Shown here one piece after another: positions 8,677 to 28,914 of a stretch of 64,000 nucleotides of DNA. The stretch's first letter is position 1. Every line of letters begins with the position of its first letter. Both the position numbers and the translations under genes were made by a program. Origin of the DNA: Siphonobacter aquaeclarae (lineage in GTDB: Bacteria; Bacteroidota; Bacteroidia; Cytophagales; Spirosomataceae); contig NZ_FNGS01000002.1 of the NCBI RefSeq assembly GCF_900103285.1, positions 474,064 through 538,063 on the forward strand, in the 5' to 3' direction. The notes beneath the pieces are model-generated. The model did not search any database. It was not told where the DNA came from and was given only the letters and a program-made list of their open reading frames with translations.

Positions 8677-9822
8677 ATGCTTTTATCAACCGACACACAG
8701 GCCAACTGTGACCTGATTGCTGCCTCCGTCCGGGATTTCGCCGTTCGGAACATACAGCCACACGTACGGGAGTGGGACGACGCGCAGTTTTTCCCGAAAG
8801 ACCTTTTTCATCGTCTCGGCGAACTGGGTGTGATGGGCGTGCTGGTACCGGAGCAATACGGCGGCGCCGGCTTCGGCTATGCCGAGTATGTGACGGCCAT
8901 CGTCGAATTGTCGCGCGTGGACCCGTCTATCGGCTTATCCATGGCGGCGCATAACTCCCTCTGCACCAACCATATTCTGTTGTTCGGAAACGAATGGCAG
9001 AAGAATACGTTTCTCCCGAAACTCGCTTCCGGGGAATGGCTCGGCGCCTGGGGCCTGACTGAACCCAATACAGGATCAGACGCCGGTAACATGCGGACCG
9101 TCGCCATTCGGGACGGAGACCATTGGGTACTAAACGGCGCCAAGAACTTTATTACGCATGGAAAAAGCGGCGACGTCGCCGTTGTCATTGCGCGTACGGG
9201 TACGGCGGGCGACCGCCACCACTCCACTGCTTTTGTCGTCGAGCGGGATACGCCCGGCTTTTCCGGCGGACGCAAGGAAGACAAACTCGGCATGCGGGCG
9301 TCTGAAACGGCGGAAATGCTTTTTCAGGACTGCCGTATTCCGGATACGCATCGGCTCGGAGAAGTGGGCGAAGGCTTCGTTCAGTCGCTCAAGGTACTCG
9401 ACGGCGGCCGCATTTCGATCGCAGCCCTCAGCCTCGGTACCGCGATCGGCGCATACGAGCATGCTCTCGCGTATGCCCAGCAGCGGGAGCAATTCGGAAA
9501 GAAGATCGCTGATTTTCAGGCTATAGGCTTCAAACTGGCAGATATGGCAACGGAAATCGAAGCAGCGCGCCTCCTTACCTTTCACGCCGCGGCGCTGAAA
9601 GATCAGAACCTTCCTGTCACCAAAGCATCGGCAATGGCGAAGCTATATGCATCGGAGGTGTCGGTGCGCGTTGCCAACGAAGCCGTGCAGATTTTCGGGG
9701 GATATGGTTTTACGAAAGACTACCCCGTTGAGAAATACTACCGCGACTGCAAGCTCTGCACCATCGGAGAAGGTACCAGCGAAATTCAGAAACTGGTGAT
9801 TTCGAGGCAGATATTGAAATAG
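8677..9822 (+). CDS. Acyl-CoA dehydrogenase (short/medium-chain type)
   Basis: 381 residues, full length. This FAD enzyme makes the first double bond in acyl-CoA beta-oxidation or branched-chain amino acid breakdown. Recognisable parts are the N-terminal helical domain ([20 protein letters not shown]), the FAD-binding [32 protein letters not shown] and [21 protein letters not shown]. The C-terminal [12 protein letters not shown] block holds the catalytic Glu at the butyryl-CoA-dehydrogenase position. Substrate chain length cannot be told. Its stop codon runs into the first unit of a heptamer repeat array. Confidence 0.93.
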
Positions 9823-9973
9823 GCTGTAAGCAGTAGGCTGTAGGCTGTAGGCTGTAAGCTGTAAGCTATAGGCTTTAGAATATCGTCCCGATTTGTGTCG
9901 TGTACAGCCTATTGCCAGGAGCCTATAGCATACTGCCTACAGCTTATAGCCTCTTGCTTACTGCTTAAAGCCC
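9821..9973. repeat. Opposed arrays of degenerate 7 bp units
   Basis: Left arm 9821-9876 is eight consecutive heptamers of consensus A[AG]GC[AT][AG]T (AGGCTGT, AAGCAGT, AGGCTGT three times, AAGCTGT, AAGCTAT, AGGCTTT). Right arm 9904-9973 is ten heptamers of the reverse complement (for example ACAGCCT, ATAGCAT, ACTGCCT, ACAGCTT). A 27-base spacer separates them. The array fills most of the gap between the dehydrogenase and polX and includes part of the dehydrogenase stop codon. Confidence 0.85.
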
Positions 9974-12749: not shown

Positions 12750-13613
12750 GTGAAGAATACCTTTATCCTGAACGGCCTGCTCTTTGCGGCACTGTGGGCC
12801 TCCGCTTCTTCTGCCGCCAAATTCGGGCTGCTTTCGGTTGAGCCGATGGTTTTGTTTGACATCCGCTTTTTCGGGGCCGGTACCCTCCTGCTCCTGTATG
12901 CCCTGCTGGTGGAACGGCAACGCCTGCCCCGGGACGGGGAGTGGAAGCAACTCCTGGTTTTCGGCCTGCTGAATACGACAATCTACCTCGGTTTTTTTGT
13001 TTTCGCGATGAAGCAGGTAGCCGCGGGAATAGGCAGTCTGGCGACGGCCACCAATCCCCTGCTGATCACGGTTATTTCCGCTTTCTGGACGCGAAAGAAA
13101 GTGGAAAAGGGCGAATGGCTCGCCATTGCGCTGGGTATGACCGGCGTGGCTATCGCAACTTATCCCCTGCTGCAAAACAGCTTTGCCACGCCGCAGGGAC
13201 TGCTATTGCTCTTCCTGAGTATGGTTTCATATTCGGCGGCGACGATCTACTATTCCGAGATCGACTGGAAACTATCCCGCAGCAGTATCAACGGTTGGCA
13301 AAACGTGATAGCGGGTTTGATGAGTATTCCGCTGATCTGGCTCTTTCACAAGGAAGATAACCATTTTGACGCCCGCTTCTGGGGCGCGGAAATCTGGTTG
13401 ATGATACCGGTGTCGGTTCTCGCCATCCAGGTATGGCTCAAGCTGTTGAAGACGGATGCTGTGCGGGCATCGCTTTTCCTGTTTTTATGCCCGGTTTTCG
13501 GATTTGCGTATGCGACGTTTTTGCTGGATGAACCGTTTACGTGGTATACCGTCGCCGGTACAGCCTTTGTATTGACGGGTTTGTGGATCGGGCAGCGGGT
13601 GAGGCGGGGGTAA
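12750..13613 (+). CDS. EamA/DMT family transporter
   Basis: 287 residues from a GTG start. Ten hydrophobic segments form two repeated EamA units (first ALWASASSAAKFGLL to TYPLL, second GLLLLFLSMVSYSAATIYYS to LTGLWIGQRV), as in drug/metabolite exporters of the inner membrane. The substrate cannot be predicted. The last five codons (CGG GTG AGG CGG GGG) and the stop TAA lie inside the left arm of a long inverted repeat. The convergent flippase ends in the mirrored sequence. Confidence 0.88.
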   Translation: MKNTFILNGLLFAALWASASSAAKFGLLSVEPMVLFDIRFFGAGTLLLLYALLVERQRLPRDGEWKQLLVFGLLNTTIYLGFFVFAMKQVAAGIGSLATATNPLLITVISAFWTRKKVEKGEWLAIALGMTGVAIATYPLLQNSFATPQGLLLLFLSMVSYSAATIYYSEIDWKLSRSSINGWQNVIAGLMSIPLIWLFHKEDNHFDARFWGAEIWLMIPVSVLAIQVWLKLLKTDAVRASLFLFLCPVFGFAYATFLLDEPFTWYTVAGTAFVLTGLWIGQRVRRG

Positions 13614-14029
13614 TCGGTAATCGGTTTTCAGTTTTCGGTTTATTGTTTTCAGTTGGAAGAGAGAGGGGTTTGTGATTTGGGGAGGTTTGTGATTTGCAGT
13701 AGGCGCAGCCTACTAATTAAAAAAGTGCGTAGCGGATGCTACGCACGGCGGGAGAGGGTTCAGGTAATACTATTTCGATAATAGAGACATAGGGGCTTGC
13801 CTGGTTGACAGGCTCAGTTTCTGTTGAGTTTAAGTGTTCAACTGTCCTTAGCGCTAAACCAGTCGTATTGGCCGCCGTGCGTAGCATCCGCTACGCACTT
13901 TTTTAATTAGTAGGCTGCGCCTACTGCAAATCACAAACCTCCCCAAATCACAAACCCCTCTCTCTTCCAACTGAAAACAATAAACCGAAAACTGAAAACC
14001 GATTACCGATTACCCCCGCTTCACCCGCT
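13594..14029. repeat. 158 bp inverted repeat with a structured 120 bp centre
   Basis: Left arm 13594-13751 and right arm 13872-14029 are reverse complements with, by base-by-base reading, one mismatch (13603/14020). The arms contain 7 bp periodic words (TAATCGG twice, CGGTTTT/CAGTTTT), a tandem GTTTGTGATTTG, and nested palindromes at 13698-13714 and 13725-13746 (GTGCGTAGC-GGAT-GCTACGCAC). The centre (13752-13871) has three small hairpins: 13770-13784, 13799-13813 and 13823-13842. The outer ends reach into the final codons of both convergent genes. No open frame or transposase is present. Confidence 0.93.
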
Positions 14030-15557
14030 TCATCACCGTCGCAAACAATCCGTTGACTTCGGGTGAAATACGGAAATAAATCAGCAGCGTTGCGAAAACA
14101 AGCGTTACGACTGACCCGCGGAGGGCAATACCGAGTAAGTGCGTCCAGGTATCGTGCCCGAGGTCGGGAACGAGGAAAGAAGCGGCATAGGCGGCGAGGC
14201 CGACGCCTGCGGCCCGGAGTGTTTCGCCGCTGAAGGGAACAATGCGGAACTTCCACCAGACAAACGCCCCGCGGGCGATGCTGTAGGAGGTTATCGTGAT
14301 CGCCGTCGCCATGGCCGCACCGGTAAACCCGAACGCCGGAATCAGCACGTGATTCAACGCGATATTGGCGACGCCAAGCAGCAGAACCAGCGCTGTCGAC
14401 ACTTTATAATACCGGGAATATCCCATGATTTCGCTTGACATTCCCCCCGACATATCCAGCAGGCTGGTGAGCGAAAACAGCAGGACAACCGTCGTACCTT
14501 CCCGGAAAACGTCACCCTTCGGCATCAGACCAAACAGGTCGCCGAGGCTCGTCCAGATTCCCACAAAAAGAAAAAGACCCGCCAGCAACTGGTGCAGCGC
14601 CACTTTGCGGTGCATGTTCTGGGTCGAAGCGTAGTCTTCCTGCATCAGGGACTGCGCTACCAGCGGTATGGCAATCTGTGTCAGGGATTTACGTGGTATC
14701 TCGATCATGGAGGCGATCAGGTAGGCAATGAAGAAAATCCCGGCTTCGCGCTGCCCCTGGTAGTGCCCGATCATGGATTGGTCCAGGTACTTGCACAACG
14801 AAGTACCGACAGCGCCAAGCGCCGCAACTCCGCCGAAGCGGATCATGTCTTTCAGGACCGGACGGACAAGATCCCACGAAATCGAAGCGAGATACAGCTT
14901 CCCCATCCCTGCCAGGTATACCAGCAACCCAAGACTGATGAGACCGTAGGACAGTACGTACAACGTCACAAACGTCTCAAAATCAATCCAGTGCAGGCCA
15001 TAGGCGATGATAACGCCCATGTTGGCGAGTTTTACGACGACCTCCCGCAGTACGGCCGGAACGGCAATACGCTGGAGATTCCGGCAATAGGATTCCAGCA
15101 CGCCCTGCAACAGGTTGAAGCCTGTCAGCCAGACAAGCAGAAAGTAGTTATCGACCAGTTCCGGCGACTTTTCCTGGTAATAGGCCGTAAACCAGGCCTT
15201 TCCCCCGAAATACACCGCCATATACAGCAGAAAATAAAAGCCTGTATAGAGCAGCAAAAACGTCAGAAAACCGTGGTGACGGGCCTCGTCGTCGCGAAAG
15301 CGGCTGAAATACCGGTCGGCGATGGACGGTCCCCCGAAATTGAAAATTGAATAAAACAGCAGCCCCATCATGAAGAGGGAGCGGGTAAGTCCCAGCTCGG
15401 CCTCTGTCAGGATTTTGGTAGCTACCCAGAGTTGATTGACGGAGCCGATGGCTACTCCGAAATACGTAACGAAGCTGGCCTTCAGGCTCTGGCGAATGAC
15501 GATTCCCAAGGATACAAGAGTCTTAAACTTCCCACTCAAACGTAATCGCCTGCTCAA
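14010..15557 (-). CDS. Polysaccharide/lipid flippase-like membrane protein (MOP superfamily)
   Basis: 515 residues with about 12-14 hydrophobic segments, resembling Wzx/MATE-type exporters that flip lipid-linked sugars across the inner membrane. Typical parts are the N-terminal SFVTYFGVAIGSVNQLWVA and the later SRYYKVSTALVLLLGVANIA. ATG 15557 overlaps the end of the OsmC gene by 35 bases. A TTG at 15509 would reduce the overlap and cannot be excluded. Its last codons (GTG AAG CGG GGG TAA) are part of the inverted repeat. No other glycan genes adjoin it, so the substrate is unknown. Confidence 0.85.
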   Translation of the reverse strand: MSRRLRLSGKFKTLVSLGIVIRQSLKASFVTYFGVAIGSVNQLWVATKILTEAELGLTRSLFMMGLLFYSIFNFGGPSIADRYFSRFRDDEARHHGFLTFLLLYTGFYFLLYMAVYFGGKAWFTAYYQEKSPELVDNYFLLVWLTGFNLLQGVLESYCRNLQRIAVPAVLREVVVKLANMGVIIAYGLHWIDFETFVTLYVLSYGLISLGLLVYLAGMGKLYLASISWDLVRPVLKDMIRFGGVAALGAVGTSLCKYLDQSMIGHYQGQREAGIFFIAYLIASMIEIPRKSLTQIAIPLVAQSLMQEDYASTQNMHRKVALHQLLAGLFLFVGIWTSLGDLFGLMPKGDVFREGTTVVLLFSLTSLLDMSGGMSSEIMGYSRYYKVSTALVLLLGVANIALNHVLIPAFGFTGAAMATAITITSYSIARGAFVWWKFRIVPFSGETLRAAGVGLAAYAASFLVPDLGHDTWTHLLGIALRGSVVTLVFATLLIYFRISPEVNGLFATVMKRVKRG

Positions 15558-15936
15558 TATCCGGATGGAGGCTGAGCGCTACCGGGCAGGTATGGGCGGC
15601 ATGTTCGAGTTTTTTCTTTTCCTCGTCGGACAAGGGCTTGCCGGTCTTCATCGTCAGGGCTACTTCCACCCGGTTGATTTTACGGGGACTGGCCGCCATA
15701 CCCTTCGTAATGTCGATGGTCGTACCGACCAGGTCAATTCCGTCCCGGCGCGCCACGATTCCCATGATCGTCATCATACACGACCCCAGGGCAGTAGCAA
15801 CCAGATCGGTCGGGGAAAAGGCCTCTCCCCTGCCGTGGTTATCGACCGGCGCATCGGTAAGAATACGGGTACCGGATTGAAGATGAGTCGCTTCGGTGCG
15901 GAGCTCGCCGAGGTAGGAAATCTGTGCGGTTGCCAT
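15523..15936 (-). CDS. OsmC family protein
   Basis: 137 residues from ATG 15936 (MATAQISYLGELRTEATH). OsmC/Ohr proteins reduce organic peroxides with two Cys. Seen are the block FSPTDLVATALGSCMMTIMG with the first Cys and HTCPVALSLHP with the second. The overall length fits the OsmC rather than the Ohr branch, but hydroperoxide specificity is an inference. A good -7 box (TACCTTTG) is 32-39 bases upstream. The flippase start lies inside its 3' end. Confidence 0.9.
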   Translation of the reverse strand: MATAQISYLGELRTEATHLQSGTRILTDAPVDNHGRGEAFSPTDLVATALGSCMMTIMGIVARRDGIDLVGTTIDITKGMAASPRKINRVEVALTMKTGKPLSDEEKKKLEHAAHTCPVALSLHPDIEQAITFEWEV

Positions 15937-15967
15937 AGGCAGGTAACGGGGATAAGAGTACAGGCAG

Positions 15968-15975
15968 CAAAGGTA
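15968..15975 (-). promoter_or_regulatory. -7 box of the osmC-like gene
   Basis: TACCTTTG on the minus strand matches TAnnTTTG exactly, 32 bases before the ATG. Confidence 0.6.
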
Positions 15976-16094
15976 CGCTGATTCCGGCTTGAACGGACGA
16001 CACAGACGTCGCGATTCCTGAAATCCGGCCGGAAGCAGCGGAGTGAATCCCGGTGGAAACCGCAACTTTTTCTCCGCATTCGCGGTTAGCCGAT

Positions 16095-16102
16095 TACCTT
16101 TG
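16095..16102 (+). promoter_or_regulatory. -7 box of lipA
   Basis: TACCTTTG matches TAnnTTTG exactly, 44 bases before ATG 16147. It supports that start over the TTG at 16114. Confidence 0.6.
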
Positions 16103-16146
16103 CGGTATTAACCTTGCGTTGGGAATCGTACGAAAACGATACTGGG

Positions 16147-17055
16147 ATGATAGAACTACCCGTTGTGGCACCCTCCGGTGCGGCACCCTCCGGCGCGAAT
16201 ATGCCCGGATCTTCTACCCGTAAGCCTGATTGGCTGCGGGTTAAACTGCCGACAGGACCGGAATACCGGAATGTCCGGCAGATTGTCGACGAATACAAAC
16301 TTCATACGATTTGTCAATCGGGTAACTGCCCGAACATGGGAGAATGCTGGGGCGCCGGAACGGCCACCTTCATGATCCTCGGAAATGTCTGTACACGTTC
16401 CTGCACGTTCTGCGCGGTGGCGACGGGCCGTCCGAACGAATACGATGCCGACGAACCCCGCCGGGTAGCCGAAGCGATTAAACTGATGGGCGTCAAGCAC
16501 GCCGTTATTACTTCTGTCAACCGCGACGAACTGAAAGACCGCGGCGCTGAAATCTGGCATCAGACCGTGAAGCTGACGAAGGAGCTGAGCCCGTCTACCA
16601 CCATCGAAACCCTGATTCCCGATACCAAGGGAAACTGGGCAGCCCTGGAAACGATGATCTCCGCCGGCCAGGAAGTAGTTTCACATAACATGGAAACGGT
16701 AGAGCGGCTGTACCGCCCGGTGCGTCCGCAGGCGAAGTATGCCCGCAGCCTGGAGCAGATCCGCCGGACGAAGGACTTCGGCAAGCGAACCAAAACCGGT
16801 ATCATGCTCGGTCTCGGCGAAACGAAAGACGAAGTTTTTCTGGCGATGGACGACCTCGTAGAAAACGGGCTGGATATTCTGACGCTGGGCCAGTACCTTC
16901 AGCCGACGAAGATGCACCACGAAGTCATCGAGTGGATTCACCCCGATACCTTCGCGATGTACCGTGAAGAAGGAGAAAAGAGAGGAATCAAGTATGTGGA
17001 GGCGGGACCGCTGGTTCGATCCAGTTACCATGCCGAACGCCACGTGAACGTATAG
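16147..17055 (+). CDS. lipA: Lipoyl synthase
   Basis: 302 residues. This radical-SAM enzyme inserts two sulfurs into protein-bound octanoyl groups to make lipoyl cofactor. The auxiliary cluster ligands are in [13 protein letters not shown]. The radical-SAM CxxxCxxC is in [10 protein letters not shown]. The C-terminal serine motif is in [10 protein letters not shown]. The N-terminus carries a small duplicated [10 protein letters not shown] coded by a near-perfect 15-base repeat. The upstream TTG at 16114 would add 11 residues but lies just after the -7 box. Monocistronic between a promoter and a strong terminator. Confidence 0.96.
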
Positions 17056-17063
17056 CGTACCGA

Positions 17064-17092
17064 ACCCCGCCCGAACGGCGGGGTCCTTTTTT
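17064..17092 (+). terminator. Terminator after lipA
   Basis: ACCCCGCC (17064-17071) pairs with GGCGGGGT (17077-17084) around a 5-base loop, followed by CC and six T. Confidence 0.88.
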
Positions 17093-17130
17093 AAACAAAA
17101 GACTTGTTTCAGGGGTTAAAACGATGCTGA

Positions 17131-18351
17131 TTGCCTGTTAGTCATCAACCCGGAACACCGTTGCATTTCGATATCGTCATTACCGGCGGCGGCATGGCCG
17201 GGCTGAGTCTGGCGTGGCACCTGAGCCGCAGCCCGCTGCGTGATAAAAAAATCCTCCTCATCGACCGGGAGCCCAAAGACCGGAACGACCGCACCTGGGG
17301 TTTCTGGGAAGCGGGAGATGGTCCCTTCGAGTCTGTTCTCAGCCGGCAGTGGTCGTCCGTCTGGTTTCATGGTTCCGGCGGATTTTCCGCAAAGCTGGGA
17401 CTCGGCCCCTATCGGTATAAACTTCTCCGGGGTATTGATTTCTACCGGTTTGTCCGGGCTGAACTCGCTGCCTGCCCTTCGGTGGAATACTGCTGTTCTC
17501 CGATTCTCTCCATTACATCTTCTGCTTCCGTTGCTACTGTTACGACGGAAAAGGGAGTATTTACGGCCGACTGGTGCTTTGATAGTACCCACCTTCTTCA
17601 AGCCGTTCGCGGCGGAGATATTTCGTCCCATTCGCAGAATCTTCTCCAGCATTTCAAGGGATGGGTAATCCGGACAAAAGAACCTGCTTTTGACACCGAA
17701 ACGCCCGTCATGATGGACTTTCGTATTCCCCAGCAGGGAGAATGCCGGTTTGTTTACGTATTGCCTTACTCGGCCACGGAGGCGCTTATTGAGTTTACCC
17801 TGTTTACGGAGGCACTACTCGAAGAAAGCGCTTACCGGCAGGGACTGATGGACTACATCCGGAATTTTACCGGCATCCGGGAATTTGAGATCGTGGAAGA
17901 AGAGTTCGGCATTATCCCCATGACAGATGAGAAGACGTATGAGCAGCCTTCGCCCCGCGTTATCCGGATCGGCACAGCGGGCGGCTATACGCGGGCGAGC
18001 ACCGGGTATACCTTCACCCGGACGCAGAAGCGCCTGCAGCAATTGGTAGCAAACCTGAGCCGAAATTGGGAGAAATCGCCCGTGGAAAAGCTCCCCGCTC
18101 CCATCCCGCTCCGTTTCCGGTTTTACGATCAGGTATTTTTAAATGTCTTTTTACAGAAAAGATATGCAGCGGCTCCGGTATTTACCGACCTCTACCGAAA
18201 AAACCCCGCCGAAAGAATCTTTCGTTTTCTGGACGAAGAAACCGGCTTTCCGGAGGACCTTCGGGTACTTTACTCCGTAGCCATTTGGCCGTTTACCGTT
18301 GCCGCCGGTGCGGTCCTCTTCCGAAACATCTCGGAAAAGTTCAAGCGATGA
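17131..18351 (+). CDS. crtY: Lycopene cyclase family flavoprotein
   Basis: About 400 residues. It has an N-terminal FAD-binding DIVITGGGMAGLSLAWHLSR and the family-typical NDRTWGFWEAGDGPF. It also has an internal CRFVYVLPYSATEALIEFT and GTAGGYTRASTGYTFTRTQ, as in CrtY/CrtL cyclases that close the beta-ionone rings of carotenoids at the membrane. No ATG is available: the ATG at 17124 stops after five codons. The start is therefore TTG 17131 or, giving the usual N-terminus, TTG 17161. No other carotenoid gene is in the window. The next gene, metK, has its own promoter. Confidence 0.85.
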   Translation: MPVSHQPGTPLHFDIVITGGGMAGLSLAWHLSRSPLRDKKILLIDREPKDRNDRTWGFWEAGDGPFESVLSRQWSSVWFHGSGGFSAKLGLGPYRYKLLRGIDFYRFVRAELAACPSVEYCCSPILSITSSASVATVTTEKGVFTADWCFDSTHLLQAVRGGDISSHSQNLLQHFKGWVIRTKEPAFDTETPVMMDFRIPQQGECRFVYVLPYSATEALIEFTLFTEALLEESAYRQGLMDYIRNFTGIREFEIVEEEFGIIPMTDEKTYEQPSPRVIRIGTAGGYTRASTGYTFTRTQKRLQQLVANLSRNWEKSPVEKLPAPIPLRFRFYDQVFLNVFLQKRYAAAPVFTDLYRKNPAERIFRFLDEETGFPEDLRVLYSVAIWPFTVAAGAVLFRNISEKFKR

Positions 18352-18360
18352 CCTGCCGGA

Positions 18361-18392
18361 TTTGGTGAATTTGGGGGGAATGTACAATTTTG
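18361..18392 (+). promoter_or_regulatory. Putative metK promoter
   Basis: TTTG at 18361-18364 and a TACAATTTTG at 18383-18392, 18 bases apart, resemble the Bacteroidota -33/-7 pair, though the -7 has two extra bases. It would produce a leader of about 180 bases. Confidence 0.45.
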
Positions 18393-18394
18393 CA

Positions 18395-18578
18395 GGAGTA
18401 TCCAGAGGCTCCGGTAAGGGCACCAACCGAGTTTAGAACGCTACGGTGGTTTGACGATACGGGCTTTTCACCTGACAATCAGGATATTGAAAAGTCAAAA
18501 CACGTTCGAAACCTTCCCACTTGCCCGGATTGCGAGAAATCGTTTATTCGTAATTCCCAACATCAATTTTTAAGGAAA
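18395..18578 (+). promoter_or_regulatory. Structured 5' leader of metK, riboswitch candidate of unassigned class
   Basis: A closing helix GTATC (18398-18402) / GATAC (18456-18460) encloses a hairpin formed by ACC-A-CCG (18422-18429) with CGGTGGT (18444-18450). A second, longer hairpin follows: CTTTTC (18464-18469) and CCTGA (18471-18475) pair with TCAGG (18479-18483) and GAAAAG (18489-18494). The opening TATCCAGAGG is like the start of SAM-I aptamers, but the GGAGGGA and GGCAACC core is missing. The pairings were found by eye. Control of a SAM synthetase makes SAM sensing the first guess. Confidence 0.45.
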
Positions 18579-19835
18579 ATGCCTTATTTGTTCACTTCAG
18601 AATCTGTATCCGAAGGACATCCCGACAAAGTTGCCGATCAGATCTCAGACGCCCTTATCGATAATTTCCTGGCTTTCGATCCCCAGTCGAAAGTAGCGTG
18701 TGAAACCCTCGTCACAACCGGGCAGGTAATCCTGGCCGGGGAAGTCAAATCAAGCACCTATCTTGACGTTCAGAGCATTGCCCGCGAGGTTATCCGGAAA
18801 ATCGGATATACCAAGTCGGAATATATGTTTGAAGCGCATTCCTGCGGTGTTCTTTCCGCTATTCACGAACAATCCGCCGATATCAACCAGGGTGTTGACC
18901 GGTCGAGCCCCGAAGAACAGGGCGCCGGCGACCAGGGTATGATGTTCGGGTATGCAACGAAGGAGACGGAAAATTACATGCCGCTCGCCCTCGACCTGGC
19001 ACACAAAATCCTGAAAGAGCTGAGCGAAATCCGGAACTACGAAGCGGAACTCCTGCCCTACCTCCGTCCGGATGCGAAGTCGCAGGTAACCATCGAATAC
19101 AGCGACGACAACGTTCCCCAGCGCATTGATACCATTGTCGTTTCCACACAGCACGATGATTTTGCTGCGGATGAAATCATGCTGGCGAAGATTCGTGAGG
19201 ACATCGTCAACATTGTCATTCCCCGCGTCAAGGCCAAAGTGAAGCCTGAGCTTCAAAAGCTGTTTGACGGAACGATCACGTACCACATCAACCCGACCGG
19301 CAAATTTGTCATCGGTGGCCCGCACGGCGATACCGGTCTGACCGGACGCAAGATTATCGTCGATACCTACGGCGGCAAGGGCGCGCACGGCGGTGGTGCT
19401 TTCTCCGGAAAAGATCCCTCGAAAGTAGACCGCTCAGCTGCCTATGCCACGCGTCACATTGCCAAGAACCTGGTCGCTGCCGGCGTGGCAGACGAGATCC
19501 TGGTTCAGGTTTCCTACGCAATCGGCGTGGCAGAGCCCTGCGGCTTGTACGTCAATACGTACGGCACGTCGAAAGTTGGCCTGACGGATGGCGAAATCGC
19601 GCAGAAAGTAGGTCAGATCTTCGATATGCGCCCGTACTTCATCGAGCAACGCCTCAAGCTTCGTAACCCGATCTATTCGGAAACCGCTGCCTACGGACAC
19701 ATGGGCCGTGAGCACCAGGTGGTAACGAAGACGTTCCGCTCTCCGGACGGCGCCGTGGTCGAGAAGGAAGTAGAACTGTTCACCTGGGAGAAACTTGACT
19801 ACGCAGACCGCGTGAAAGCGGCCTTTGGTCTCTGA
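18579..19835 (+). CDS. metK: S-adenosylmethionine synthetase
   Basis: 418 residues. It condenses methionine and ATP to SAM. The motifs are the N-terminal [23 protein letters not shown]-binding [12 protein letters not shown], the P-loop-like [20 protein letters not shown], then [19 protein letters not shown]. The open frame runs upstream to 18390 without a stop, but the leader has no plausible start and the homologous N-terminus begins at [15 protein letters not shown]. The gene is followed by a strong terminator. Confidence 0.97.
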
Positions 19836-19855
19836 TCCTGACTTTCCCTGAAAAG

Positions 19856-19884
19856 GCTGCTCTGTTTGACAGAGCAGCTTTTTT
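19856..19884 (+). terminator. Terminator after metK
   Basis: GCTGCTCTG (19856-19864) pairs with CAGAGCAGC (19870-19878) around TTTGA, then six T. Confidence 0.92.
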
Positions 19885-19949
19885 GTTTCCGGCGATAAAA
19901 TCTACGGGAGGGCCTTCTATCTTTAGCGGCATTGTTCAACCCGGATCAG

Positions 19950-22031
19950 ATGGAAGAAGAGTCCCTTCGCCGCCTTCAGGACGAAGTAGAGCGGCTATCC
20001 CGCCAATTGACGGACGCCCAGCAGCAGCTGCAGGATGTTCGGCGGCAACTACATGCATTAGCCGGCCGGCCTTCCGGTGTACCAATACCACCTCCCGCGC
20101 CCGCGCCAAAGCCGGCGCCAATACCTCCGAGACCCATCGCCAAAGCCCCAACCGAAGCCTACATCGGTGGGAACTTGCTCAGCAAAGTTGGCATCGCCGC
20201 ACTGGTCATTGGAATGGCCATTTTCGTCAAGTATGCGTTTGACAACGATCTGATAGGACCATGGGGCCGCTTGCTGATGGGCTGGGGAATAGGCTGTGGT
20301 CTGGTAGCCCTGGCACTCTTCCTGAAACCCCGCTACCTGACCTATAGCGCTGTACTGCTGAGCGGAGGCGTGGCTACGGTGTATTTTACGACATACGCTT
20401 CGTTTTATTTCTATCATTTCGTCCCGTCGCCGGTTGCATTTGCTGTCATGGTCGCGACGACCCTTGTCACTGTCTGGCTGGCTACCTTGTATGATGTGGA
20501 GTGGATTGGCCTTTTCGGGCTTGTCGGCGCCTATGCCGTACCTTTTCTGGTCGGCGGAAACGGCGCACCGTGGGGACTTTTCACCTACATGACGATTTTG
20601 AATACCGGCGTTCTGGTACTTTCATACCGAAAAGACTGGCGGAAAATGAACCTGTTTGCCTTTCTGGTGACGTGGACCATTTTCGTAGCCTTTGTGCTGG
20701 ATAGCAGTCGGCCGGGGTACTTTTGGACCAGCCTGGTCTTTGGAAGCATCTTCTTTCTGATGCTGTATGCCGCCCTGCTCATTCACGACACAGCCGCAAA
20801 CTCCCGGCAGGCCGTTCTGATCATTCTCAATGCGCTGGTATTTCTTGTCGCCGGGCGGATTGTCCTGAAAGAAAATCCGGATTGGATACTCTTTCTCGCC
20901 GCCAATGCGGGGATACATGCAGGCGTGGCCTGGTGGCTGCGAGTACGGAATCGTTCGTTGTCGCTCACGGCCTGGTCCCTTTGCATTGTCTCCGGAATTG
21001 TTCTGGAAGAGGCCGCTGTAGGCCCCTCATTCCTGCTCCTGACCGGCATGGCAGGAGCCTGGGCATTCTACCTGACCGGATTGCAGCGAAGCATGCTTTT
21101 TCTGGTACGCTGGGGTATCGTACTGGCAGTTCTTTCGGTGCTGGTACTGTTCCGTGATTTATCCCTGCAGGCGGTTGATCATCAGGTAACAGCCTATATG
21201 AATTCTGTTTTTGTCAAACGCTTCGTGGCACTGACGTTGCTGGGCGGTATGGTATGGGCAGGCTTTTATCGTTTTCACGACCGGCGTTCTGCTTCCTGGC
21301 TCGGCGCATTGCTGTTTCTGGCCGCCTATCCCGCCGGATGGATGGAATGCTACCTGCATGGTCTGGCCGGCTCTTCATCCTTTACCCTCTTCACAGGCAC
21401 GTATCTCGGCATTTCACTGCTGTTGATTGCACGGGACGCAGGGCCGGTCTGGCGGGCGATCGGCCTGGTACTGAGCGTTGTACTCTGGCTGTATCTACTG
21501 GCTGATCAGCCGTTTAGCCATCTCCGAACCCTCCGACTGGCACATCCGGATACATCCGGTGCGCTCCGGTATGCGTTGTATGCGGCCGTTGCGCTGGCCA
21601 CGGCCGGGTGTTTTCTGGTGATGCGAAAAGCCTCTTCACAGCGCGTCCGGCAGGCCGCCGTCTACCTTCCGCTGGCGGCTGCCTGGTACCTGGGCAGCGA
21701 AGAGCTCGTCTCGCTTTTTGTCGGGACAGACAAAACCGCTGCCGCCGATCACTACCAACAGGCGTATCACGCCGGATGGAGCGTATTGTGGGGTGTTTAT
21801 TCGTTTGTGCTGGTGGGTATAGGCTTCGGACGGCAATGGAAGCCTTTCCGGCTGGCGGGAATCACTCTGTTTGGCATCGTGGTGGCCAAACTGCTGCTGT
21901 ATGACCTGAGCGGGCTGTCTTCCGGCGGCAAGATTGTGGTCTTCCTGAGCGTGGGGGTATTGTTGCTGCTGGCGTCGTTTCTCTATCAGAAATTTCGCCT
22001 GCCAGAGGAGAAAAAGGAAGCAAATGACTGA
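19950..22031 (+). CDS. DUF2339 polytopic membrane protein
   Basis: 693 residues from ATG 19950; the frame is open from a TTG at 19932. An N-terminal coiled coil (about 1-40) and a Pro-rich linker (PPPAPAPKPAPIPPRP) are followed by some 20 hydrophobic segments, beginning with the family hallmark GGNLLSKVGIAALVIGMAIF. That is the DUF2339 architecture. Function is unknown; the fold suggests an inner-membrane protein with no evident catalytic residues. A TATCTTTA box at 19918-19925 supports the ATG. It is convergent with lepB, with a hairpin overlapping its stop codon. Confidence 0.88.
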   Translation: MEEESLRRLQDEVERLSRQLTDAQQQLQDVRRQLHALAGRPSGVPIPPPAPAPKPAPIPPRPIAKAPTEAYIGGNLLSKVGIAALVIGMAIFVKYAFDNDLIGPWGRLLMGWGIGCGLVALALFLKPRYLTYSAVLLSGGVATVYFTTYASFYFYHFVPSPVAFAVMVATTLVTVWLATLYDVEWIGLFGLVGAYAVPFLVGGNGAPWGLFTYMTILNTGVLVLSYRKDWRKMNLFAFLVTWTIFVAFVLDSSRPGYFWTSLVFGSIFFLMLYAALLIHDTAANSRQAVLIILNALVFLVAGRIVLKENPDWILFLAANAGIHAGVAWWLRVRNRSLSLTAWSLCIVSGIVLEEAAVGPSFLLLTGMAGAWAFYLTGLQRSMLFLVRWGIVLAVLSVLVLFRDLSLQAVDHQVTAYMNSVFVKRFVALTLLGGMVWAGFYRFHDRRSASWLGALLFLAAYPAGWMECYLHGLAGSSSFTLFTGTYLGISLLLIARDAGPVWRAIGLVLSVVLWLYLLADQPFSHLRTLRLAHPDTSGALRYALYAAVALATAGCFLVMRKASSQRVRQAAVYLPLAAAWYLGSEELVSLFVGTDKTAAADHYQQAYHAGWSVLWGVYSFVLVGIGFGRQWKPFRLAGITLFGIVVAKLLLYDLSGLSSGGKIVVFLSVGVLLLLASFLYQKFRLPEEKKEAND

Positions 22032-22056
22032 GGCGCGGGCTTCGCCCGCGCCTCAG
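22028..22056. terminator. GC-rich UUCG hairpin between convergent genes
   Basis: A perfect 13 bp palindrome (CTGAGGCGCGGGC, loop TTC, complement) overlaps the stop of the DUF2339 gene and ends five bases before the lepB stop. It has no T tail, so it is either a factor-assisted terminator or a REP-like element related to 2610-2640. Confidence 0.6.
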
Positions 22057-22060
22057 TTCC

Positions 22061-23203
22061 CTACCGGATAGGCCGGAACAGCCGGCTCCACCGAACCGTA
22101 TGCCAGCTATCTCCTGGAACCGGGTCGAGTGACATCCACACAAACACCGCTTTTCCGACGACGTGGTCTTCCGGAACAAACCCCCAATACCGGGAGTCGT
22201 CGGAATTATGCCGGTTGTCCCCCATCATGAAATAATAATCCTGCGTAAAGGTGTAGGAAACGAGGTCTTTTCCATTGATTTTAAGCCGATTACCGGACAC
22301 CTCGACGTCTTTCTGATGTTCGTACCGACGGATAACCGGACCGTAAACCGCCATTGTCCGCGCATTGACGGGAATAGTCATTCCTTTTTTGGGTACCAGC
22401 AGCGGGCCGAAGTTATCGCGGTTCCAGGCATATGCCGGAGTGCCGTAGATGCCCGGTTCCGCGCGACCGGGTTCTTCCGTCATCGGTTCGAGACGCTGTA
22501 CCCAATCCTGGCTTTTCAGGTCGTCCGCCACTTCCCGCGTGGTCAAAATCTGATAGCCGATTTTGTGAACGGCTCCGGTCGAATCCTGCTCTTCCACCGG
22601 CTGCCAGTTGATAAACGGGCCTTCCTTGGAAGCAAAGTCATTCACAATACCGTATTTCCGGAAAAAGCGATCATCCAGTTCTTCCGTCGTACGCAGCAAA
22701 TAACTGGTCTGCGCGCCGGCTGGAGGCGCCATCTCCTTTCCGTTTACGAAAACATGTTCGCGGCGAATCTCAACTACATCCCCCGGCGTGCCGATGCACC
22801 GTTTGATGAGGTACGTCCGGAGATCCATCGGGTAATCCGGTTCGCCGGGTTTCGGAGGAGGAAAGTTAAAGACGACAACATCTCCGGAACGAACATGCGT
22901 AAAGCCCGGCAGCCGGTAAGTCGGCAACTGGATCAGATCGGTGTAGGATGGAATATTCGTACCCCAGATTTTCTGGTGCGTCAGCGGAACCTGCAGGGGC
23001 GTCTGTGGTGTGCGGATTCCGTAATGTAGTTTGCTCACAAATAAAAAATCCCCCACCATAAGCGAATGCTCCATAGAGGGGGTCGGAATGGCAAATGCTT
23101 CCAGGGTCAGGAAACGAATGAGCGTCGCGGCTACAACCGCAAAAGCGAGGGAGTGAAACCACTCGCGAACGGGAGAGCGGCGGGTCTTTTTTCGACTGAA
23201 CAT
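22061..23203 (-). CDS. lepB: Signal peptidase I
   Basis: 380 residues from ATG 23203. It cleaves signal peptides at the periplasmic face of the inner membrane. One N-terminal membrane segment (FHSLAFAVVAATLIRFL) leads into the catalytic Ser in IPTPSMEHSLMVGDFLFVSK, and the general-base Lys is in YLIKRCIGTPGD. The C-terminal MMGDNRHNSDDSRYWGFVP is conserved. A long insert between the Lys box and this motif is usual in Bacteroidota. The frame extends to a TTG at 23233, but that TTG is part of a -7 box, so ATG 23203 is preferred. Confidence 0.94.
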   Translation of the reverse strand: MFSRKKTRRSPVREWFHSLAFAVVAATLIRFLTLEAFAIPTPSMEHSLMVGDFLFVSKLHYGIRTPQTPLQVPLTHQKIWGTNIPSYTDLIQLPTYRLPGFTHVRSGDVVVFNFPPPKPGEPDYPMDLRTYLIKRCIGTPGDVVEIRREHVFVNGKEMAPPAGAQTSYLLRTTEELDDRFFRKYGIVNDFASKEGPFINWQPVEEQDSTGAVHKIGYQILTTREVADDLKSQDWVQRLEPMTEEPGRAEPGIYGTPAYAWNRDNFGPLLVPKKGMTIPVNARTMAVYGPVIRRYEHQKDVEVSGNRLKINGKDLVSYTFTQDYYFMMGDNRHNSDDSRYWGFVPEDHVVGKAVFVWMSLDPVPGDSWHTVRWSRLFRPIR

Positions 23204-23229
23204 AGGCTTGATCGCTTGGAATGATGCGT

Positions 23230-23237
23230 CCAAACTA
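23230..23237 (-). promoter_or_regulatory. Possible -7 box of lepB
   Basis: TAGTTTGG on the minus strand, 27 bases before ATG 23203, is close to TAnnTTTG. Confidence 0.4.
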
Positions 23238-23266
23238 GCCGGTAACCCGCCTGACTCCGAGGGCTT

Positions 23267-23683
23267 TTACACAGACGGCATCTTACTCATGTCCATGTGC
23301 AGGACGTTCCAGCGATGCCCGTCCGGATCTACAAAACCGCCTCCGTACATCCATCCCTGATCGGAAGGCTTTCCATAGACGGTGCCTCCGGCGGCTTCCG
23401 CTTTGCGGAGGACTTCATCCACTTCTTCCCGGCTGGAGGCGTCGAACGATATCAGTATTTCATTGCCTTTTGTTGTGTCCGCTACGGCATTGCCGCAGAA
23501 TCCGGCAAAGGCCGCTTCTTCGAACAGCATCAGTACGATTCCCTTGTTACCGAGGAGAAGGCTGGCGGAATCGGGCCGGTCGCCGTAATGCGCATTAAAC
23601 GTGAATCCAAGCGCGGAGAAAAACGCTTTCGCCCGCGCGACGTCTTTCACAGGGAGATTAATCCAGAAGTCAGTAGCAGCCAT
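23267..23683 (-). CDS. VOC (glyoxalase/bleomycin-resistance) family protein
   Basis: 138 residues from ATG 23683 (MAATDFWINLPVKDVARAKA). The two beta-alpha-beta-beta-beta units of the VOC fold are apparent: the first INLPVKDVARAKAFFSALGF, the second ISFDASSREEVDEVLRKAEA, then GGFVDPDGHRWNVLHMD. The latter carries the usual second-module end. Metal ligands are not clearly conserved, so neither glyoxalase nor dioxygenase activity can be assigned. The open frame upstream to 23788 has no supporting signal. Confidence 0.85.
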   Translation of the reverse strand: MAATDFWINLPVKDVARAKAFFSALGFTFNAHYGDRPDSASLLLGNKGIVLMLFEEAAFAGFCGNAVADTTKGNEILISFDASSREEVDEVLRKAEAAGGTVYGKPSDQGWMYGGGFVDPDGHRWNVLHMDMSKMPSV

Positions 23684-24077
23684 TGTATCAGAAAGAGAGA
23701 AGGTTCGGAACGAATATACAGCATATCTGCAATCCGTCTTTGCTCTCTTCAGGAAAGGGACGGGCGAATAGATCCTTCCTGCTGTCACCCAAATGCGCCG
23801 GAAAATCGACTCACCGTATTTAGCCTTTCTCCTCTGCTGTTTTTGGAGGCAGAATATAGATAAGATTCCCTACCTAAAATGACAAGATTTCCCCCCCTGG
23901 CGTCCGGATGCGTTTCCGATATTCGCTCTGTTTCGACCATTGCCCCCCGCTTTTGTGCAGTTACTCGAATGGCCGCGGCCTACATACCAAAAAATAAGTA
24001 GGTTTCCCATGCATTGTGATCCGCAAAGCTCACATGATTAACACAATTCGATTGTTCACTCTTAATTCTATCTCTTC
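23684..24077. other. Divergent intergenic region, no gene seen
   Basis: 394 bases between the VOC gene (minus) and a secreted protein (plus). It is AT-richer than the surroundings, with a run of eight C near 23891 and a TTG...TATC pair just before 24078 that might be a promoter. No open frame, repeat array or clear RNA structure was recognised. Confidence 0.4.
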
Positions 24078-25439
24078 ATGCGATTTCTTTACCTCGCACT
24101 CGGCTGTCTCGCGCTGCCGCTGGTGGCATCTGCCCAATCCAAAATCAAAGATGGTACTGTTTCCGGCAGCGGGTCGCTGCCCAACAGTGCGGCAATCCTG
24201 GAATTAGAGAGCTCGAATAAAGGGCTTCTCTACCCGCGCGTCGCGCTGTCTTCCAACACAACGACCTGGTCTCTGACCGGCAGCCCGATCGCCGGCATGG
24301 CCGTTTACAATACCAATTCAGCGCTTTCAAGCGTCAATACGGCCTATCCTGCACTGGCGGGCGGTATTGGTATCTATTACTGGGACGGTACCGGCTGGGT
24401 GGGAACAAAACCTTCCGCCGGCGGCGACTTCTGGAGCCTTACCGGTAATGCCGGAACGGACCCGCTTGTCAATTTCCTCGGAACAACCGACACCAAACCC
24501 CTTCGTTTCAAAGCTGGCAACGTGTATTCCGGTTACATCGGTCTTTCTTCTTACCCCGGTGGCGGCAGCCAGGATCTGAACACGGCATTCGGCTATGGAG
24601 CAGGCGGCGACGTTGTCAACCGCATGACGACAACCGGCGCTTTCCGGAAAATGACCGCTGTCGGACATATGGCACTTGGCGGCGCAACGCTGGCTGCCGG
24701 AGCCAATCTGACAGAAAATACGGCCATCGGGTTTGAAGCCGGTAAGGCTCTTGCCGGAACGAGCCATCGGAACACGCTGGTCGGCTCGATTGCGGGCGGC
24801 GGAATAAGTCAGGGTACGTTGAATACCCTCGTCGGCCAGGCCGCGATGGCCAGTGCTACCGGAGGAGACGGAAACGTATTCGTCGGTCAGGGTACCGGCT
24901 CGGTTTCCACGGGACCATTCAGCAACAACACCTACATCGGTACCCAGGCAGGGCTAAACAGCGGCGGAAGCGGGAATATCCACATCGGGTACAATGCCGG
25001 TTATAATAACGCCGCCAGCAACCGGCTGATGATTGACAATTCCCAGACGAATACCCCGCTGATTGACGGCGATATGGCCAATCGCGTTCTGACTGTCAAT
25101 AATTCCCTGGTAATACGCGGCTCGTTCACATCACCCATCAAGAGTGTTACGGCCGATTATACCCTGACGGAAACCGACTATACGGTCGTGTGTCGTCAAA
25201 CGTCTGCGATCACCATCAGTTTGCCGGACCCCGCCACATGCGCCGGCCGGATGTACTATATCATTAATAACGGAACCGTTTCAGTCAACACCAACTATTC
25301 CTTTGAAGTAGCAACCGGTGTTACCCAGAACTTCATCCCGAGAGCATTGCAGGGAATCAGCAGTCCGAATCCCAATTTCGGACAGAAGTACCTGCTGCAA
25401 AGCGACGGGACACAATGGGTGCTGATTTCTTTGGGGTAG
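24078..25439 (+). CDS. Secreted repeat protein of tail-fibre/adhesin type
   Basis: 453 residues with signal peptide MRFLYLALGCLALPLVASAQ. The middle (about residues 165-320) contains at least eight imperfect repeats of the form N-x-hydrophobic-x-G-x-x-A-G: NTAFGYGAG, MTAVGHMALG, NTAIGFEAG, NTLVGSIAG, NTLVGQAAM, NVFVGQGTG, NTYIGTQAG, NIHIGYNAG. Such repeats are seen in proteins related to phage tail fibres and trimeric adhesins, and they probably form a beta-roll or coil. The C-terminal part (YTLTETDYTVVCRQ, SLPDPATCAGRMYYI) resembles receptor-binding tail-fibre ends. No T9SS sorting domain is seen. The following gene is 103 bases downstream, probably co-transcribed. Confidence 0.8.
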   Translation: MRFLYLALGCLALPLVASAQSKIKDGTVSGSGSLPNSAAILELESSNKGLLYPRVALSSNTTTWSLTGSPIAGMAVYNTNSALSSVNTAYPALAGGIGIYYWDGTGWVGTKPSAGGDFWSLTGNAGTDPLVNFLGTTDTKPLRFKAGNVYSGYIGLSSYPGGGSQDLNTAFGYGAGGDVVNRMTTTGAFRKMTAVGHMALGGATLAAGANLTENTAIGFEAGKALAGTSHRNTLVGSIAGGGISQGTLNTLVGQAAMASATGGDGNVFVGQGTGSVSTGPFSNNTYIGTQAGLNSGGSGNIHIGYNAGYNNAASNRLMIDNSQTNTPLIDGDMANRVLTVNNSLVIRGSFTSPIKSVTADYTLTETDYTVVCRQTSAITISLPDPATCAGRMYYIINNGTVSVNTNYSFEVATGVTQNFIPRALQGISSPNPNFGQKYLLQSDGTQWVLISLG

Positions 25440-25542
25440 GAAGATCGGCGACCTCAAATCTGCTTTCCATTTGAGGCGATAATCCGTGTTTTTATGTGTG
25501 AAGGACGTTAAATCAACACAAATGATAACAGCTATAATTGGC

Positions 25543-27084
25543 ATGCATCTCAGGCGGGATGTTCTGATGCTACTGTTTTTCCTGACGCCGGTAGTTGCGC
25601 TGGCCCAGGCGCCAGGCAGCACGACCGTCTATGGCGGACCGCTTCAGACGGTTTCGCTGTCGGCAGGATCTACCCTTGCCGACGCCGCCGAAACCCTGTA
25701 CATCGGCCCGGGAACCTACGTTATCGACGGAACCTGGGAAATCTACAGTAAAAACGTCGTCATCGACCCGGCAGCAGTCATAACCGGCTCCGGAACGATT
25801 CATTTTTTCAATCCGTCCGCTGCGGGCGGAGCCGCCAGCCAGACGCTGGTGGACGGTAACACCGCCGCACCGATTGATGTAAACCTGGTACTCGATAATC
25901 CGGATGGCCTGCAATTGAAGGAAATACCTGTTTCACCGGACCTGACAGCCGCCGGATTCAGTGACAATCCGGCTGCGTCGACGCTGCAGGTGGGGAAAGA
26001 CCTGCTCCTGGCAACGGACGGCGCGAATGTGTTTCTGGGAACCGGTACTGCCGGCGACCTGGCGTTTGACGCAGACGCGACGATCTCCGGTTACGGCGTC
26101 AACCGGATGGTAGTGACCAATAATTCCACGCTGAGCCACATGACGAAGGAAAACCTGGCTTCGGCGTTTGTTTTCCCGGTGGGCATTGCGGCCGGAGATT
26201 ACACGCCGGCAACGGTAGCGCCGGCGTCTGCCACGACTATCCACGTAAGCGTACAGGACTATTCGGCCTCGCCTCCGGTTATTCCGGCTCCGGCCAAAGG
26301 CATGGCGCGGACGTGGCAAGTATTCGGCGATGCATCTGTTCCCGCCACGCTTACACTTCAGCACAATGTGGCGACGAATGGCAGCAGCTATACCGATGCC
26401 TCGGCTTTTGTGACGCAATACAACGGGAGCGGGTGGAGCAGCCCGGGCACAGTCGACTACGTCAGTCCGGGTATTCATACGCACACCGGATACTCGTTGC
26501 CATCGTCGGCGGACAATACCGCCTTTTTCTCGAAAACGAGCGACGCGGTCACGCCCCTGCCCGTGACGCTTGTAGCCTTCTCTGCGACGCCGGAAGGTCC
26601 TTCGGTAAAACTGGCCTGGCGTACCTCCCAGGAGTCCAACAGCGATTACTACGCCGTTCAGCATAGTCTGGATGCCCGTACCTGGCATACGCTCGGAACG
26701 ATTCCGGCGGCCGGAGAAAGTCAGGGCTTCAGGCAGTATGGCTTCACGGATGGCGCACCGGCTAACGGTGTCAATTATTACCGGTTGCTGATGGTGGACA
26801 AAGACAGGACCGCCAAGTATTCTGACGTTCGTTCTGTCGAAATCCAGGTAGTCTCCGGCCTGAAGGTCTATCCGAATCCGGTGGTTGATCGGCTGTCTGT
26901 TACCTCCCCCAATTGGTCTGACGTACGGTCTGTCCGGGTGGTTTCGTTGCAGGGACAAGTGGTGTATGAGGACGGGCCTGTCACAGAAATTGGCGTCCGC
27001 CACCTTGCACCGGGCGTTTATGTCCTGCAGCTCGCGAGATCGGGCGGAGGAGTAGAGCAGAAAAAGTTTGTTATTGTACGATAG
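25543..27084 (+). CDS. Secreted protein with type IX secretion C-terminal sorting domain
   Basis: 513 residues from ATG 25543, which begins a good signal peptide (MHLRRDVLMLLFFLTPVVAL, then AQ). An in-frame ATG lies at 25522. The body is a large beta-rich region without recognised enzyme motifs. The segment VKLAWRTSQESNSDYYAVQH matches the fibronectin-like unit often placed before the sorting domain. The end LKVYPNPVVDRLSV, then APGVYVLQLARSGG and KKFVIVR, is a type A T9SS domain. It should be exported across the outer membrane and anchored or released. Confidence 0.88.
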   Translation: MHLRRDVLMLLFFLTPVVALAQAPGSTTVYGGPLQTVSLSAGSTLADAAETLYIGPGTYVIDGTWEIYSKNVVIDPAAVITGSGTIHFFNPSAAGGAASQTLVDGNTAAPIDVNLVLDNPDGLQLKEIPVSPDLTAAGFSDNPAASTLQVGKDLLLATDGANVFLGTGTAGDLAFDADATISGYGVNRMVVTNNSTLSHMTKENLASAFVFPVGIAAGDYTPATVAPASATTIHVSVQDYSASPPVIPAPAKGMARTWQVFGDASVPATLTLQHNVATNGSSYTDASAFVTQYNGSGWSSPGTVDYVSPGIHTHTGYSLPSSADNTAFFSKTSDAVTPLPVTLVAFSATPEGPSVKLAWRTSQESNSDYYAVQHSLDARTWHTLGTIPAAGESQGFRQYGFTDGAPANGVNYYRLLMVDKDRTAKYSDVRSVEIQVVSGLKVYPNPVVDRLSVTSPNWSDVRSVRVVSLQGQVVYEDGPVTEIGVRHLAPGVYVLQLARSGGGVEQKKFVIVR

Positions 27085-27087
27085 AGG

Positions 27088-27120
27088 AATCGGGCCGGCA
27101 AATGCCGGCCCGATTGGTTT
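27088..27120 (+). terminator. Terminator-like hairpin
   Basis: AATCGGGCCGGCA (27088-27100) pairs with TGCCGGCCCGATT (27103-27115), followed by GGTTTTA. It sits three bases after the preceding stop. Confidence 0.75.
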
Positions 27121-27228
27121 TATGGAAATAGTAGTGTGTATTTGTCGGATTTTCGGGAAATCTGTTCTTCGTCGGTGAAATTACCTCCCAGAGAACGACC
27201 GATATCAGGCCTCTCTCCTCTTTTTCCC

Positions 27229-27945
27229 TCACCTCACAAACAAACAATAATTACACCGATGCCTTACCTGCCTGTAAGATACACCCAGGTAGTTTCCCGG
27301 AGAAGGATCATTCCAGTCCAGCCGGACGATATACATCCCTTTCCGGGGCGGGAAAAAGACCGCTTCTCCGTTTTTATCTGTTTCGAGCGCTTTCTCCCAG
27401 TTGTCGGGATTAAAAATCCGAAGGCGGGTGCCAGGTTCAACAGGCCGACTGTCGAGGTATGGCCGGATAACCCATAGGCGGTCACGGGACGCCAGCTCCA
27501 GATCGAGCCGCTGCTGCGCGCCGGAAATACCCATCCCTTTTCCAACCCGATAGCCGGTACACAGGTATTCGACCGGGCGGACATTGATGCCGCCCGTTGC
27601 CGACCGGTCCACGACCGGAAGCTCTTCGTTTATTCCCAGTATCCGGTAAAATCCATTTTTTTCAGGAGTAAACCAGCCTTCCAGGCATGCCCGCTCCGGC
27701 TTGAGCGGCAGCTCTTTCCGCTGCCCGCTGCCGTCGACGATCGTCACCCTGAACCCACGGAGATACAACGGGTCCGTTTCCCGCTTCCGAACGCCATACT
27801 CGTCGATTTCACCGTAACAGACCCGAACCCGGACGGGCTCATGCCGTTTTCCGGAACCCTGAATGTCGAACCAATAACCGTGTGCCAACCCCTTGAAAGG
27901 CGCCAGCAACAGGCACAATAGGCCTATACTTCTAAGAAGCTTCAT
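27229..27945 (-). CDS. DUF4198-like periplasmic protein
   Basis: 238 residues. The signal peptide ends in GLAHGYWFDI; the mature N-terminus beginning with His is characteristic of DUF4198/NikM-like proteins, where it is thought to bind metal. Two beta-sandwich parts follow, the second ending GEAVFFPPRKGMYIVRLDWN. Several Cys (YLCTGYRVG, HRCNYCLFVR) could form disulfides. The role is unknown, with possible involvement in metal uptake. It stands alone between two lipoprotein or secreted genes. Confidence 0.75.
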   Translation of the reverse strand: MKLLRSIGLLCLLLAPFKGLAHGYWFDIQGSGKRHEPVRVRVCYGEIDEYGVRKRETDPLYLRGFRVTIVDGSGQRKELPLKPERACLEGWFTPEKNGFYRILGINEELPVVDRSATGGINVRPVEYLCTGYRVGKGMGISGAQQRLDLELASRDRLWVIRPYLDSRPVEPGTRLRIFNPDNWEKALETDKNGEAVFFPPRKGMYIVRLDWNDPSPGNYLGVSYRQVRHRCNYCLFVR

Positions 27946-28027
27946 GGAAAGAAACGCCGGTACCCGGCGGCAGTAATCTCCGCAAAACTAAACCATCCGG
28001 ACCGAATGCCGCTTCTTTCCGCAGGCC

Positions 28028-28777: not shown

Positions 28778-28865
28778 GAAATTTTACCGGTTTTTCGAAC
28801 AAAACTTCATGAAAGTTACTCATTACCAGCACAATACAACTACCGTTCACGAACTGCCGGGCAAC

Positions 28866-28892
28866 AAAAAAAGAGGCTCCTTCCGGAGCCTC
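28866..28892 (-). terminator. Terminator after raiA
   Basis: GAGGCTCC (28873-28880) pairs with GGAGCCTC (28885-28892) around TTCC. In the minus direction a run of seven T follows (28866-28872). Confidence 0.88.
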
Positions 28893-28914
28893 CCTGTTAT
28901 ATGAGCGGATCGGC

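Follow-up and report, generated by a model that had tools for sequence, protein, structure and literature searches.

REP sequences of the CGTC type occur in Bacteroidetes without a transposase, and REP dimers have been described near the 3' ends of genes, some of them inside longer palindromes (PMC3733652). Sets of the heptamer TAACTGA lie mostly upstream of start codons in the genome in which they have been studied most (PMC4679880), and a survey of stem-loops found them concentrated in convergent intergenic regions near stop codons (PMC1590033). Template switching homogenises the arms of inverted repeats and can alter several adjacent codons at once (PMC8604942, PMC8794818, PMC7202029), and the mitochondria of Nematomorpha carry long perfect inverted repeats whose coding arms evolve in concert (PMC6649704). 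The locus described here bears on the question of how bacteria come to have, and retain, long perfect palindromes. It lies in a stretch of 64,000 nucleotides of the Siphonobacter aquaeclarae genome (contig NZ_FNGS01000002.1, positions 474,064 to 538,063 of the forward strand), which we call the window, and comprises the following features.

12750..13613, plus strand: EamA/DMT transporter gene, convergent neighbour (gene call)
13594..13751, plus strand: left arm of the long inverted repeat, 158 nt (inverted-repeat search)
13594..13613, plus strand: transporter coding end within the arm, CGG GTG AGG CGG GGG TAA (sequence, congener tails)
13611..13656, plus strand: outer shell with a 7-base period, TAATCGG TAATCGG TTTTCAG TTTTCGG TTTATTG TTTTCAG TTGG (sequence)
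13657..13697, plus strand: linker with a 13-nt direct repeat, GGTTTGTGATTTG twice (inverted-repeat and genome search)
13698..13749, plus strand: U unit, composed of a 7-bp hairpin, an AT linker, a 9-bp hairpin and GGC (covariance model, fold)
13719..13746, minus strand: predicted intrinsic terminator for flippase transcripts (consensus match only)
13752..13871, no strand: centre, 120 nt (genome search and fold test)
13872..14029, minus strand: right arm, identical at 157/158 positions to the reverse-complemented left arm (inverted-repeat search and sequence)
13874..13925, minus strand: second copy of the U unit, inverted (covariance model, fold)
13877..13904, plus strand: predicted intrinsic terminator for transporter transcripts, GTGCGTAGCATCCGCTACGCAC TTTTTT (consensus match only)
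13926..13966, minus strand: right-arm copy of the linker (inverted-repeat and genome search)
13967..14012, minus strand: counterpart of the outer shell next to the flippase, pointing inward (sequence)
14010..14029, minus strand: flippase coding end within the arm, CGG GTG AAG CGG GGG TAA (sequence, congener tails)
14010..15557, minus strand: flippase/polysaccharide biosynthesis membrane protein gene, convergent neighbour (gene call)

Re-analysis returned the arms (13594-13751 and 13872-14029), their one mismatch and the 120-nt centre exactly as in the original prediction. The arms are 99% complementary in the inverted-repeat search and differ only at G13603 and T14020. Their outer bases are coding, as had also been claimed, and comprise the last 20 nt of each gene with its stop codon (13611-13613 on the plus strand for the transporter and 14010-14012 on the minus strand for the flippase), the transporter ending in RVRRG and the flippase in RVKRG. 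Folded as a single strand, the palindrome reaches -353.8 kcal/mol, compared to -131 ± 6 in shuffles (z = -36), and shuffled genome sequence contained no inverted repeat of 25 nt or more. The three small hairpins previously noticed in the centre are not significant, as this segment folds no better than its shuffles (z = -0.87); the significant hairpins sit within the arms, in the U unit (z about -5). No clear relative of the centre was found elsewhere in its own genome, and the element matches no RNA family described in Rfam at E up to 1. When the whole element was compared to its own genome, about 150 matching pieces were obtained; the arms are non-unique outside the linker, and for the linker itself (13657-13697) no other locus in this genome appeared among the matches listed.

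Each arm is a mosaic which consists, from the outside in, of the 7-base-periodic shell, a locus-specific linker and the 52-nt U unit. U reads AGTAGGCGCAGCCTACT AATTAAAAAA GTGCGTAGCGGATGCTACGCAC GGC, with an AT stretch joining its two hairpins, and its stems covary: 18 cells were changed on both sides, compared to 4.3 ± 1.6 in shuffles, and this value was reached by 0 of 500. Searched with a covariance model, U has 38 copies in S. aquaeclarae, 49 in Siphonobacter sp. BAB-5405, 21 in another congener and none in a further three; elsewhere in a family sample of 61 genomes the model gave marginal, partial matches only. These genome-wide counts are based on searches and three 400-kb samples. An exact search for U in named genomes matched BAB-5405 alone, and none of the viral contigs searched with the U pattern contained it; among the genomes searched, U is restricted to Siphonobacter. 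Most copies in S. aquaeclarae form inverted pairs 100-200 nt apart, and 11 of 22 U clusters lie between convergent genes, where 14% of gene pairs would be expected (p = 7e-5).

U resembles the REP sequences of the GTAG and CGTC superfamilies (PMC3733652) in its short hairpin units, covarying stems, mostly inverted pairing and intergenic location near 3' ends, and with 38 copies it is a dispersed short palindromic unit like them. However, U has two hairpins and an AT linker that gives a T-tract, and it is found within locus-specific arms which reach coding ends. Neither is the unpaired GTAG or CGTC tag of REP present, as GTAG falls within the first stem of U and no CGTC precedes the second. A RAYT/REP origin found no support, since the single Y1_Tnp gene of the genome has another palindrome, and not U, at its flanks. 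This other palindrome (L122, 1290-1399) has the sequence GACCCCGAAGGGGTC...GCCCGGCATGCAATGCCGGGC, and a similar repeat adjoins U copies in BAB-5405 (L131, L134).

Heptamer arrays are found throughout the genus. The shell ending in TTGG is frequent only in S. aquaeclarae (52 exact matches, compared to 0-5 in each relative), and shell motifs that lie close together are paired facing inward, as in terminal inverted repeats. Among 48 sampled heptamer arrays with an upstream gene on the same strand, 31 begin 1-13 nt past its stop codon, and several of the others come after a GC hairpin with a T-tract; in the window, the shell on the transporter side opens with the stop codon. Seven-base intergenic arrays are likewise formed by the STRR sequences of cyanobacteria, which are heptamer direct repeats. 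The TAACTGA arrays (PMC4679880) also share with the shell a seven-base intergenic arrangement, a sporadic distribution, an occurrence in some Bacteroidetes and a related CTGA core. In contrast to them, arrays of the window type usually have four units, form inward-paired palindrome shells and lie just after stop codons. U dimers nested in heptamer shells, with arms extending to or past both stop codons, were not found in the open-licence literature that we searched.

A nested palindrome of this kind is borne by many other gene 3' ends in S. aquaeclarae, starting at the stop codon or slightly inside it and decayed to various degrees, and each has a linker of its own that recurs, inverted, in the two arms. 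The window palindrome is the cleanest among dozens at gene ends in this genome and the most perfect of those found (157/158), the others decaying to about 75%. These loci were picked by similarity to the window element, except those from the 400-kb samples, and their genes were called with a simple hexamer-score script that reproduced the genes of the window. The unselected 400-kb samples, taken from three Siphonobacter genomes, yielded 22 long inverted repeats, none of them inside genes or between divergent genes, and shuffled sequence yielded none.

When arm was aligned to arm at eight loci, sequence found only at that locus was present in both arms, as with the linker GGGTTACCCAGCGCAGCCG...GGCGCAGGAG of L033 and the linker GGCCGGCGTAATTGCCGGCCTTCTGCGTTTTCGG of L024. 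Because such locus-unique linkers are inverted in both arms, the arms should have come from local inverted copying and not from the insertion of one standard element. Locus-specific linkers and graded decay are what would be expected if local inverted copying were followed by decay, whereas insertion of a standard element would give a shared interior and is not expected to produce this pattern. Moreover, U units are closer within loci (0.075) than between loci (0.136; permutation p = 5e-5). The earlier suggestion that the arms are kept alike by gene conversion is therefore supported in substance, as the arms are concerted within loci and their linkers are locus-specific.

Homogenisation that includes non-repeat sequence is also a feature of quasipalindrome correction, but there the tracts are mostly short (PMC8604942, PMC8794818, PMC7202029), whereas the window arms have 158 bp and join two convergent gene ends. 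The palindromes of Nematomorpha (PMC6649704) differ in another respect, since both of their arms lie within genes and the window palindrome captures terminal codons only. We regard template switching and recombination between the arms as equal candidates at the window locus. Two points speak against such copying: for one bacterial template switch a tract of 158 bp is long, and SbcD, part of an enzyme that attacks long hairpins, is present. As SbcD occurs in all six genomes, its loss was ruled out as the cause of palindrome build-up.

The flanking genes give an indication of the direction of copying. The transporter ends in GQRVRRG in the window and in GQRAGK, GQRSGK or GQKK in five congeners, all five of which differ from it; the flippase ends in KRVKRG in the window and in KKVRKTNP, KKTRKLKY and QKTRKTKY in three congeners. 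As the flippase tail resembles those of congeners (KKVRK), the flippase arm is the likely donor, and as the transporter tail does not, the flippase end has probably been copied over that of the transporter. Judging from this conservation of tails, copying would have proceeded from flippase to transporter, and extension of the palindrome has probably rewritten the last few residues of the transporter. What looks like a second case, with a different donor, is L052, where the arms span both stop codons: a response regulator there ends in WMGK, a tail retained in two congeners, and the gene facing it, which has no relatives in the genus, ends in MVGK, the shared tail being short. A protein end thus seems to have been changed by growth of the palindrome at two loci or more. 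At L022, too, stop codons are shared by way of the arms. Positions 2000-2650 of L022 form a compound locus with multiple U pieces in direct and inverted orientation and duplicated linkers, as if inverted copying had occurred more than once.

In the nearest congeners (60-75% protein identity) the transporter and flippase genes are not adjacent, and where both could be placed on one contig they are about 42 kb apart, so that the junction in the window is itself lineage-specific. Over 12750-32450 of the window the gene order is unlike that of the congeners, in which two genes matching 29610-32450 sit between the transporter and the flippase; the palindrome occupies the lineage-specific junction.

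With respect to function, a terminator scan of the window element gave exactly one consensus match per strand, a GC-rich hairpin and T-tract downstream of each gene. It is the second hairpin of U that, when read on the other strand and followed by TTTTTT, matches an intrinsic terminator. As each U carries one such match, one for each strand, a pair could stop transcription from both convergent genes, and a bidirectional terminator pair would be the most economical role for it. U pairs in S. aquaeclarae nearly always place the terminator hairpin outside, so that each gene reaches its predicted terminator in the arm nearer to it; the window pair is reversed, and the predicted terminator is reached in the far arm. 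Were both terminators functional, the 3' untranslated regions of the two genes would have an overlap of some 186 nt, and the complete hairpin would be contained in neither transcript. That either transcript forms a very long hairpin, as was originally supposed, is hence doubtful, because the predicted terminators would end it ~33 nt into the second arm. The idea of a structural terminator survives in part, in the predicted intrinsic terminator that the arms carry on each strand and in the location of the family at gene 3' ends. Compared to the bidirectional intrinsic terminators of convergent genes (PMC1590033), the window palindrome has arms far longer than needed, two predicted terminators and repeat-family content.

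The explanation that we favour, with a probability of roughly 0.6, is that a REP-like U pair with a bidirectional terminator has grown symmetrically by inverted copying at the DNA level. Its core would be the paired two-hairpin U units, each supplying the hairpin-plus-T terminator of one strand. The sequence around this core would have been duplicated in inverted orientation, and the arms would be kept symmetrical by DNA-level copying between them, whether by gene conversion or by quasipalindrome correction, in which the template is switched at the replication fork. Outward copying would have halted on meeting the flanking genes, and in the window it would have replaced the final codons of the transporter with those of the flippase. 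The sequences directly show the anatomy of the palindrome, its family, the concerted arms with their locus-specific linkers, the altered transporter tail, the covariation of U stems and the location at 3' ends; how copying worked, which way it ran and a role in termination we infer from sequence comparison, the mechanism being read from its outcomes. Of the nested 3'-end palindromes that form this genome-wide class, the one in the window is the most perfect and probably the youngest. The genome holds a series of them graded from 99% perfection to severe decay, in which flanking genes mark the direction of copying.

The alternative that survives best, although we consider it unlikely, is a mobile miniature element: either U or the shell bounded by heptamers would be a non-autonomous transposon which has inverted ends and inserts where genes end. 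The dispersal of both motifs in S. aquaeclarae (38 U copies and 52 exact shell motifs), the inward pairing of close shell motifs and a U copy number that ranges from 0 to 49 across congeners would all agree with mobility. However, the members have no cargo in common, most of each arm, the interior and the linkers being locus-specific; the only Y1 transposase gene has no U nearby; viral contigs lack U; and no target duplication is visible at the window arms, as judged from the window sequence alone. As to the mobile palindromic element first proposed, the 52-nt U is at best an improbable candidate and the 436-bp structure none, given the missing shared cargo, linked transposase and visible target duplication. 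A bolder version of our own explanation seems improbable to us, namely an active genome-wide process in Siphonobacter which makes stop-codon-anchored inverted duplicates between gene 3' ends, perhaps with dedicated proteins recognising the shell or U, and repeatedly moves C-terminal codons between unrelated convergent genes.

Somewhat less probable still is that selection on RNA holds the arms together, a very long 3' hairpin being needed for termination or mRNA stability. This would account for the position at gene 3' ends, with 0 of 22 inverted repeats between divergent genes in three genomes, for the very strong fold of the window palindrome and for the covariation of U stems. Nevertheless, termination needs far less than a 158-bp stem, and the predicted terminators would cut transcripts before the full stem is made. 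Furthermore, arm mismatches on the sense strand of tandem loci (28 G-U, 27 A-C and 75 transversions) show no excess of pairs tolerated in RNA, so that a process at the DNA level accounts for the symmetry of the arms better than selection for a stem in RNA does. A separate, post hoc observation on the tandem-gene palindromes L029-L058 is that, on the contig plus strand, A-C mismatches outnumber G-T ones (44 vs 11) whichever strand is sense; this excess is not seen at convergent loci.

An assembly or amplification artefact, that is, a chimeric hairpin at a repeat, might be suspected from the absence of the gene junction in congeners and from a draft assembly of 19 contigs, but it is very hard to reconcile with arms that differ by one base and reach into two different genes, with the internal position of the window in an 896-kb contig and with the many independent loci of the same assembly that share this architecture at every stage of decay. 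Equally implausible is an invertible switch, also among the original suggestions, in which the centre is flipped by recombination between the arms, as long near-identical inverted arms could recombine but no promoter-like site was found in 13500-14120, both flanking genes point inward and the immediate neighbours include no recombinase.

Other palindromes were observed in and outside the window. One at 49916-50022 is a smaller TTTTCAG/TTTTCGG palindrome with arms of 33 nt and a loop of 12 nt, located 7 nt past a stop codon on the minus strand. Another, at a gene 3' end (9822-9972), is made of TAGGCTG/TAAGCAG heptamers, with arms of 53 nt and a spacer of 45 nt, and the 400-kb samples (L220-L239, L260-L279) contain gene-end palindromes of GGGCATG in S. 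aquaeclarae and of TAGTTGT and GTTTAGG in another genome (G003). As the latter are built from other 7-base units, the formation of heptamer palindromes is not tied to a single motif.
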